Positions 41,991 through 44,070 of a stretch of 64,000 nt of DNA are shown here, in pieces. Made by a program: the position numbers and the translations under genes. Each line of letters opens with the position of its first letter. Within the stretch, counting starts at the first letter, position 1. The notes below the pieces were generated by a model that saw only the letters and a program-made list of their open reading frames with translations, did not search any database and was not told the DNA's origin. The DNA is from Stenomitos frigidus ULC18. Lineage in GTDB: Bacteria; Cyanobacteriota; Cyanobacteriia; Leptolyngbyales; Leptolyngbyaceae. The stretch lies in assembly GCF_003003795.1 (NCBI RefSeq), contig NZ_PVWK01000031.1:1-64000 (forward strand), written 5' to 3'.

Positions 41991-42191
41991 CTAAACTGCC
42001 TGTTTGAACAGTGCATCCAGGTAAACACGTGCAGCACGGCGATCGCAATCTCCATTTTGCAACAAAAAGAGGGACACTGCTGCTGCAAAAACGCGATCTT
42101 GGTCCCAGTCGGGATGCGATTCGAGATAGAGGGTAATTGCCGTGTGAAGTTCTTCAGGAATTTCTGCCAGAATGCTAACGGTCGTGGTCAT
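41991..42191 (-). CDS. DUF2811-family small protein
   Basis: 66 residues from the internal ATG at 42191: MTTTVSILAEIPEELHTAIT, LYLESHPDWDQDRVFAAAVS, LFLLQNGDCDRRAARVYLDA. It matches the small cyanobacterial DUF2811 family, predicted helical with a ribbon-helix-helix-like layout; function unknown. The open frame extends upstream to 42398, but those residues are not conserved. It lies just left of the DnaA-box array, pointing away from it. Confidence 0.8.
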   Translation of the reverse strand: MTTTVSILAEIPEELHTAITLYLESHPDWDQDRVFAAAVSLFLLQNGDCDRRAARVYLDALFKQAV

Positions 42192-42597
42192 GAGAACCTC
42201 AGTTGATGCTAAAAGCACGTTGATAATGAAGCGGGGAGAAGCAGTTCGACTTTGCACCCTGTAGAGAAAAAGCCGATGAGAATTTGGTGCTGCAGCGCTA
42301 ACACTGAGGCACATGCACCACAATCGCTTGATTCTCCAGAAGCAAACAGTCCTGTTGGCGTGGGTTTCAGAACGGTCGTGTGGGGATAAGCCAATCATTG
42401 TGCCTAGAGGTCGGTTTGCTTGTCAATGCTGCCCATCCCCGTTGGCGCGTTCATGCTAAAACGGCCTAACGAAAGAATCGGTATTTACACGTGATCCCCG
42501 AAATATTGCTTAACATTTCGCGGCGTTTTCTCAGAATAGAGGCGCGATCGCCTGGATGGAACTCAACCCACAGAAGACCGATTCTACCGTTCAGTAC

Positions 42598-42681
42598 TGT
42601 GGAAAACAGCCGCTAATCTGTGGAAAACCGTGATATATCTGTGGAAAACCTGTGGAAAGTCTGTGGAATCAATGGGGAAAA
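42598..42681 (+). other. Phased DnaA-box array, candidate replication origin
   Basis: TGTGGAAAA, the reverse of the cyanobacterial DnaA box TTTTCCACA, occurs perfectly at 42598-42606, 42619-42627 and 42640-42648. Near matches follow at 42651 (TGTGGAAAG), 42662 (TGTGGAATC) and 42673 (TGGGGAAAA). Start-to-start distances are 21, 21, 11, 11 and 11 bases, i.e. whole helical turns, all in one orientation. An A-rich stretch follows (42690-42720), suitable for unwinding. The region is non-coding, between DUF2811 (leftward) and a permease (rightward). No dnaA or dnaN is in the window, so origin function is inference. Confidence 0.65.
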
Positions 42682-42933
42682 CTCTGGTGAAGGATAAGAA
42701 TTGCAAAAACTCAAAAAAGTCAGGATTTGTGGTCTTTTGGGCTCACCGTCCGCTTCCACTTGGAACACATGTTCTCCTCTCGTCTTTTGTCTCATGCCGA
42801 TGTTACGTTCGACCAGGTTAAGTGAAGCGGATTCAGAGTACGATTCTACAAAGCTGATTACCACTTAACGCTCTCTTGTTTACCGCTTTCTTGTAACGCT
42901 CTCTATCCAACTCCTTAGCCCCCGCGCTGCGAT

Positions 42934-44070
42934 ATGAACTGGTGGCAACGACTCAAAAACAATCCCCTGGCTCGGTTTGGCGCGATTCTGTTGCTGCTAT
43001 TTTATGTGGCCGCGATCGCTGCTGAGTTTGTTGCTCCTTATGATCCTTATGGGTCACAGCCCGACGGTGCACTGTTGCCACCCACTCAAATTGCCTGGCA
43101 GAATCAATCTGGAGCATTCGTTGGCCCGCATGTCTATCCCACCACACAGGGGCCAGTCGATCTGAATACTGGCGATCGTCAACTAGTGGTCGATCGCAGC
43201 AAACCATCTCCTCTACGTCTGTTTGTTACGGGGGATGAGTATCGCCTGTTTCAACTGAAGTTGCCGCTTCCCACCCAGTTCTCTTTAACAGACCCCAAGT
43301 TTGATGAAGTGGAACTCTTTGGGGGCATTCCGGGCAACTGGCATTTATTTGGCACCGTTGGGGCGGGTAAGTTTAACCTGCTGGGCACCGACGAGCAAGC
43401 ACGCGATCAGTTCAGTCGCTTGCTGTATGGCGCGCGCATTAGCTTGAGCATTGGTCTCGTTGGCATCATTATTTCGTTTCCGCTGGGGATGCTGGTCGGC
43501 GGGATCTCCGGCTACTTCGGTGGCTGGATCGATAGCGTTCTGATGCGCCTAGTTGAGGTGCTGATGACCATTCCCAGTATTTATTTACTGGTCGCGTTAG
43601 CTGCCGTACTGCCGCCGGGTCTTAGTAGCGCCCAACGATTCTTACTCATTATTCTGATTACGTCCTTTATCCGCTGGGCCGGTTTGGCGCGCGTCATTCG
43701 TGGGCAAGTGTTGTCAATTAAAGAGCGCGAGTTTGTCCAGGCAGCACGGGCTATGGGTGGGCGATCGCTCTACATCATCATCCGCCATGTGTTGCCTCAA
43801 ACCGCCAGCTATATTGTGATTTCGGCAACGCTTTCGATCCCAGATTTTATTGTGGCAGAATCAATCCTCAGTCTGATTGGGTTAGGCATTCAGCAGCCCG
43901 ACCCATCCTGGGGAAACATGCTTTCCTTGGCGACGAATGCGTCCATTTTGGTGCTGCAACCGTGGTTGATCTGGCCGCCAGCATTACTCATTATTCTCAC
44001 GGTACTGGCATTTAACCTACTTGGTGATGGACTGCGGGATGCGCTCGATCCACGTAGTGTGTCACGGTGA
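42934..44070 (+). CDS. Peptide/nickel-type ABC transporter permease (OppC/DppC)
   Basis: 378 residues. The N-terminal helix (NPLARFGAILLLLFYVAAIA AEF region) is followed by a ~115-residue soluble insert holding GNWHLFGTVGAGKFNLLGTD. The permease core has five helices and the EAA loop REFVQAARAMGGRSLYIIIR. This matches the OppC/DppC subunit that pairs with OppB in the membrane. No oppB, ATPase or binding protein is adjacent; in cyanobacteria these are commonly scattered. Start ATG at 42934. Confidence 0.9.
   Translation: MNWWQRLKNNPLARFGAILLLLFYVAAIAAEFVAPYDPYGSQPDGALLPPTQIAWQNQSGAFVGPHVYPTTQGPVDLNTGDRQLVVDRSKPSPLRLFVTGDEYRLFQLKLPLPTQFSLTDPKFDEVELFGGIPGNWHLFGTVGAGKFNLLGTDEQARDQFSRLLYGARISLSIGLVGIIISFPLGMLVGGISGYFGGWIDSVLMRLVEVLMTIPSIYLLVALAAVLPPGLSSAQRFLLIILITSFIRWAGLARVIRGQVLSIKEREFVQAARAMGGRSLYIIIRHVLPQTASYIVISATLSIPDFIVAESILSLIGLGIQQPDPSWGNMLSLATNASILVLQPWLIWPPALLIILTVLAFNLLGDGLRDALDPRSVSR

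Follow-up and report, generated by a model that had tools for sequence, protein, structure and literature searches.

What does a regular row of DnaA boxes do at a genomic site that has neither dnaA nor dnaN nearby? The question is raised by the window, that is, the whole 64,000-nucleotide stretch of Stenomitos frigidus ULC18 DNA analysed here; the genome, of 6.98 Mb, is in 167 contigs, of which this is C125. A preliminary description had listed three perfect and three near boxes at this site, and our recount reproduces their positions and their start-to-start spacings of 21, 21, 11, 11 and 11 bp (Table 1). Its view that such a row is not expected by chance is also borne out: the window contains a single set of three perfect boxes spanning no more than 60 bp, and 0 of 1000 dinucleotide-preserving shuffles contained even a close perfect pair on one strand. 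Isolated boxes with at most one mismatch number 19 in the window against an expectation of 18.35, which is no enrichment; it is the clustering, and not the count of single boxes, that exceeds chance. The flanking genes do point away from the array, as had been described, with DUF2811 to the left on the minus strand and an OppC-type permease to the right on the plus strand. For DUF2811 the ATG at 42191 was picked as the start by similarity to relatives, the mechanical open reading frame extending to 42398. By OppC, the closest named relatives are Stenomitos rutilans HA7619-LM2 (93 percent) and Lyngbya sp. HA4199-MV5 (92 percent).

Table 1. Features in and around the box array, in window coordinates.
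Feature	Position	Strand	Remarks
DnaA-box array	42598..42681	+	six boxes; reads TTTTCCACA on the - strand towards DUF2811; conserved in relatives
Perfect boxes TGTGGAAAA	starts 42598, 42619, 42640	+	
Near boxes	starts 42651 (1 mismatch), 42662 (2 mismatches), 42673 (1 mismatch)	+	
Conserved far-end motif	42693..42707	-	gene strand TTTGCAATTCTTATC; from alignments of relatives
HLR1-like (RpaB-site-like) element	42500..42517	+	14 of 18 positions here; better in relatives at the same place
Predicted DUF2811 promoter, TTGACA-18 bp-CACAAT	42397..42426	-	-35 starts 235 bp before the ATG
DUF2811 gene, 66 aa	41991..42191	-	PF10929, E 3.2e-28
OppC-type permease gene	42934..44070	+	neighbour only

Cyanobacterial oriC usually adjoins dnaN or dnaA. 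In this genome dnaN is on contig C26 and dnaA on contig C147, in keeping with the earlier remark that neither is near the array. Upstream of dnaN there are six perfect boxes, divided into two groups of opposite orientation; one box pair is followed directly by GCCTCTACTACTACTG, a DnaA-trio-like (CTACTACTA-type) run followed by A+T-rich DNA. When a strict CTA-type run was required within 35 nt 3' of a box on either strand, a test more stringent than the published pattern, it was found at five of nine dnaN loci, that of this genome included, and in 0 of 74 DUF2811 upstream regions, that of the window included; CTACTA hexamers are present in nine of the 74, in no case 3' of a counted box at a distance of 35 nt or less. 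As the remaining four dnaN loci likewise have no strict run, its absence alone is not decisive. However, the opposed boxes and the trio-like run taken together place the origin of this chromosome most likely at dnaN on C26.

The preliminary description had proposed the array as a candidate chromosomal origin, a reading that the number and phasing of its boxes favour, as does the replication of some cyanobacteria from multiple origins (stated in the portion consulted of PMC7198777). The array does have the box cluster of an oriC, but neither the adjacency to dnaN or dnaA nor the strict trio run. Similar rows of boxes, moreover, stand before DUF2811 elsewhere, on plasmids as well as on other chromosomes, and also at second copies of the gene. 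The proposal is therefore unsupported: the window array is probably not oriC, and we regard a role as the true or a second origin as highly improbable. GC skew, computed over the window, has no sharp minimum at 42.6 kb.

Genome-wide there are 72 perfect boxes, compared with 37 matches to the reversed control pattern, and perfect boxes lie close together at three places: before dnaN on C26, 3' of guaA on C7, and in the window array. The C7 array (G000:C7:52441-52501, locus L165) consists of three perfect boxes with spacings of 31 and 21, just 3' of guaA. On C129, upstream of a second copy of DUF2811, lies a fourth and weaker array: one perfect box and four near ones in a row, the nearest standing 183 bp from a promoter of the form TTGACA-18-CACAAT. 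An abundance of comparable arrays elsewhere would, according to the preliminary description, have spoken against an origin; few others were found in this genome.

In relatives, array positions were taken from pattern searches, among the matches listed, and 80 stretches, nearly all around such positions, were read. Clustering of the open reading frames in these stretches puts the arrays in three settings: at dnaN, 3' of guaA, and hundreds of bases upstream of DUF2811. The opposite flank of the DUF2811-linked arrays varies among relatives. As a candidate for the regulated gene, oppC was rejected: a cluster of at least three boxes occurs at only 2 of 80 OppC loci, both from the closest relatives (L039, L040), so that the link of the array is to DUF2811 and not to oppC.

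Loci were also chosen by gene, ignoring the array, as the best 30 matches from each of two DUF2811 searches (n = 60, L229-L288). An array was scored where at least two same-strand boxes, at least one of them perfect, lay within 100 bp. Forty of the 46 upstream regions scored first (45 loci and the window) have an array by this rule; in 30 rounds of dinucleotide shuffling of the 46 regions, the mean number with an array was 0.1 and the maximum 1. The 15 loci initially left out (duplicates, short upstream DNA, or a protein not matching the pattern) were re-examined, giving 11 with an array, two without, and two that the script could not locate. Of the two without, L256 has only 280 bp of upstream DNA and L282 belongs to G178, a genome without dnaA; at the two unlocated loci, L249 and L288, boxes are visible in spite of the script. 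In total, 50 of the 58 located loci, the window apart, pass the array rule, and eight fail it, some of them from dnaA-bearing genomes. In a harder set of second copies and small-genome families the figure is 9 of 20: five divergent DUF2811 copies lack an array altogether, and at several more loci only near boxes occupy the usual place. Over both sets a box cluster is thus kept upstream of one gene, as at a DnaA-controlled promoter. The divergent extra copies without arrays (L346, L347, L351, L352, L353) have possibly escaped a DnaA-type control.

Rows of boxes precede six second copies of DUF2811 in three genera (G000, G002, G003, G006, G010, G019). DUF2811 is also present on 13 plasmid records, all cyanobacterial; in the six of these copies that were read, boxes stand in line at a similar distance in four (one with near boxes only), three of the six passing the strict rule. 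A phage collection gave no DUF2811 match at E 0.01. The dnaA-bearing genus g60 (L281/G102, L284/G237, L285/G272) has TCCCCA-type repeats where others have TCCACA boxes, and in L281 a CTACTACTG run and CTACTA lie amid such repeats upstream of DUF2811; the box rule ignores repeats of this type.

How the array is placed relative to the gene was seen by aligning 74 upstream regions, loci fetched for their arrays among them. Read on the DUF2811 strand, a TTTGCAATTCTTAT motif and TTTTCCCCA come first, then weaker TTCCACA boxes at steps of 11-22 bp and strong TTTTCCACA boxes at 21-bp steps; after a stretch that varies come the HLR1-like element, GCATTGACA and, after 17-19 bp, mostly CAnAAT. Both a box and a promoter are present in 68 of the 74, the promoters being predictions chosen by consensus score. 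From the -35 element the nearest perfect box, skipping any less than 100 bp away, is at 182-183 bp in 40 of the 68 regions and at 180-184 bp in 50; in the gene-chosen subset the corresponding figures are 21 and 27 of 42. The distance from promoter to ATG, in contrast, ranges from 63 to 445 over the 68 regions, with a standard deviation of 81 against 18 for the distance from box to promoter, and from 63 to 407 in the 42 gene-chosen ones. The geometry relative to the predicted promoter is thus near-fixed, as is expected of a DnaA-controlled promoter. Since the array keeps its spacing to the promoter but not to the reading frame, transcriptional control is favoured over titration by a bystander.

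That the array is a site for DnaA titration or for adjusting DnaA activity, of the datA/DARS kind, and merely lies beside DUF2811, nevertheless deserves consideration. Several strong boxes in one orientation would suit such a site, as would the finding of multiple arrays in a genome, that 3' of guaA having no obvious promoter role. Less easily reconciled with such a site is the array's position, which keeps a nearly constant distance to the DUF2811 promoter in different genomes and at second copies. Arrays 3' of guaA recur in a number of relatives, yet were found in only 4 of 49 genomes in a set rich in other families, which indicates that the guaA and DUF2811 arrays behave differently. We consider simple titration unlikely, although titration and promoter control could coexist. 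The fallback reading of the preliminary description, a regulatory or titrating DnaA site outside the origin, therefore survives, with its regulatory half, as control of the DUF2811 promoter, preferred to plain titration on account of the near-fixed spacing.

Other elements accompany the array and the promoter. The consensus of the far-end motif, allowing at most three mismatches, is found in 52 of the 74 upstream regions, a count made without shuffle control. At the dnaN origin of this genome, AATAAGAATTAC, with three mismatches to the far-end motif, comes after the trio-like run. Directly before TTGACA, aligned relatives have the consensus AACATTTCGCAGCA, of which the window has only the last part, GCAGCA; this is possibly the site of another regulator. 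An inverted box 44 bp from the last box was rejected as a general feature, as it occurs in 14 of 42 regions (at most three mismatches) compared with 5 when a control offset is used.

HLR1 is the consensus of the RpaB site (PMC13421787, PMC11633204, as given in the extracts consulted). HLR1-like elements were scored out of 18, with two positions free. Between -130 and -20 relative to the -35 element, the best score is at least 15 in 42 of 68 regions, compared with about 5 percent in mononucleotide shuffles, and in 38 of the 68 no place in the upstream region matches better than that at -91/-92 from the -35, on the opposite strand. This conserved placement suggests RpaB (light/redox) input at the DUF2811 promoter. 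Activation is, however, reported for positions -45 to -66 from the start, and the element lies farther upstream than these; since the match in this genome is poor (14 of 18), RpaB input is put forward here as a suggestion only.

If the array serves DnaA, its fate and that of DUF2811 may be expected to depend on dnaA. DUF2811 is present in nearly all dnaA-bearing cyanobacterial genomes searched. Our survey covered 388 genomes of the class, of which 334 were good, that is, with completeness of 90 percent or more and contamination of 5 percent or less. Across the 388, by complete per-genome tables, 19 have no DnaA match and 13 no DUF2811; among the 334, dnaA is missing from 13, DUF2811 from 12, and both from 10. 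DUF2811 is thus missing from 10 of 13 good genomes without dnaA compared with 2 of 321 with it, namely G067 and G179 (Fisher 4.5e-15, with kinship ignored). The dnaA-less good genomes with a DUF2811 match are G178 and G383, where the gene is intact, and G353, where it has two stops. Outside the 334, six dnaA-less genomes that are 62-83 percent complete all have DUF2811, and dnaA may be absent from them merely as a consequence of assembly; G289, 69 percent complete, has dnaA and no DUF2811. A guaA tree of 49 genomes (a single-gene tree, with G042 as root for display) scatters the double losses over distinct parts: family f36, which under this rooting does not form one clade, near the base; G341 among dnaA-bearing genomes of f31; and G356 and G365 inside f32. 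Outside this tree, G172 may be a further case of double loss; it is dnaA-less, nominally 99 percent complete, and has no guaA match above the cut-off.

The boxes themselves follow a similar pattern. Close box pairs are present in 28 of 30 genomes with dnaA and in 4 of 13 without, compared with 3 of 30 and 4 of 13 for the reversed control, so that the pairs in the dnaA-less genomes are background; three of those four genomes have no DUF2811, and in the fourth, G353, the pair is far from it. In the dnaA-less G178 DUF2811 is intact, and both the TTTGCAATTCTTATT motif and the DUF2811 promoter, GCATTGACAAG...GACAATAG, are retained, with no box (at most one mismatch) between motif and promoter, whereas its congener G327, which has dnaA, has one near and three perfect boxes. 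This single case looks like the remnant that would be expected after loss of the binding protein. In G383, also dnaA-less, one perfect and two near boxes are still present upstream. The observations that bear on a possible dependence on DnaA are evolutionary: the co-loss of DUF2811 with dnaA, and the loss of boxes in one dnaA-less genome.

The boxes could alternatively be recognized by DUF2811 itself, should it be a DNA-binding protein, which would then regulate its own gene or compete with DnaA. A conserved promoter architecture in front of a small conserved protein would agree with this, as would the sequence pattern of DUF2811, which may resemble that of a ribbon-helix-helix protein. Structural modelling counts against it: an AlphaFold2 model from 52 sequences is too weak for a fold to be assigned (mean pLDDT 63.8), with three helices at 13-25, 31-45 and 51-63, and gives no convincing PDB match. 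The best Foldseek match has E 5 and the best VIA-align match Z 4.1 among 13 chains, with no ribbon-helix-helix protein among the matches, and profile searches had no significant hit other than DUF2811 itself, reaching E 0.43 at best in PDB, E 0.016 at best in other Pfam families, and nothing in NCBIfam. The boxes are, furthermore, identical to those of cyanobacterial oriC, a type of box that DnaA domain IV of Cyanothece binds in vitro (in the available part of PMC4674748), and G178 keeps DUF2811 without a box. Self-recognition by DUF2811 is accordingly very unlikely. No mention of DUF2811 or PF10929 was found in the literature searched; in the cyanobacterial DnaA-box literature, no title or abstract opening refers to a DUF2811-linked array, while a mention deeper in a text is possible.

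Our preferred explanation, which we consider probable, is that DUF2811, a proposed gene of the DnaA pathway, is driven by a composite promoter region in which the array is the part bound by DnaA. DnaA would bind the strong, promoter-proximal boxes and extend from there onto the weaker distal ones, and the bound array, some 180 bp ahead of a conserved promoter of sigma-70 type, would tie DUF2811 transcription to the level or nucleotide state of DnaA. A distance of about 180 bp is far for direct contact. The HLR1-like site between array and promoter may add a light/redox input, and DUF2811 would act in the DnaA pathway, probably in feedback on replication initiation. What the sequences show is the array, a predicted promoter, the near-fixed spacing between them, the linkage to DUF2811 and its co-loss with dnaA; from these we infer DnaA binding, the direction of regulation, the RpaB input and the function of DUF2811. 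More tentatively, and with less confidence than we attach to the promoter itself, we speculate that DUF2811, which tends to be lost together with dnaA, might be an unrecognised DnaA regulator or box competitor, in a feedback loop through a DnaA-controlled promoter that with RpaB light/redox input might couple replication initiation to photosynthesis.

For cyanobacteria able to replicate in the absence of DnaA, Ohbayashi and colleagues describe its function as unclear and name transcription as a possible role (PMC7198777, in the portion consulted). A widely conserved promoter array, together with a gene that tends to disappear along with dnaA, provides a concrete candidate target of DnaA and a candidate partner protein, both of which can be tested in laboratory strains.

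Among known systems, the datA and DARS loci of Escherichia coli are non-coding and work with IHF or Fis, whereas the window array is tied to a promoter. What the array shares with datA, DARS1 and DARS2 is being a cluster of DnaA boxes outside the origin, clusters that in E. coli affect DnaA activity, as far as the excerpted sources go. In Bacillus subtilis, DnaA-box clusters outside oriC were reportedly described by Ishikawa in 2007. Like the array, these are intergenic boxes, from which DnaA is said to regulate nearby genes (via the available part of PMC7198777). Unlike them as they are presented in that source, the array accompanies a single gene family across the genomes of a class, with a near-fixed spacing to the promoter, and its gene tends to be missing where dnaA is. 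With the cyanobacterial oriC upstream of dnaN (PMC4674748, in the part available) the array shares the same TTTTCCACA boxes, but it has no dnaN beside it, no opposed groups and no trio-like run, and it recurs instead at DUF2811.
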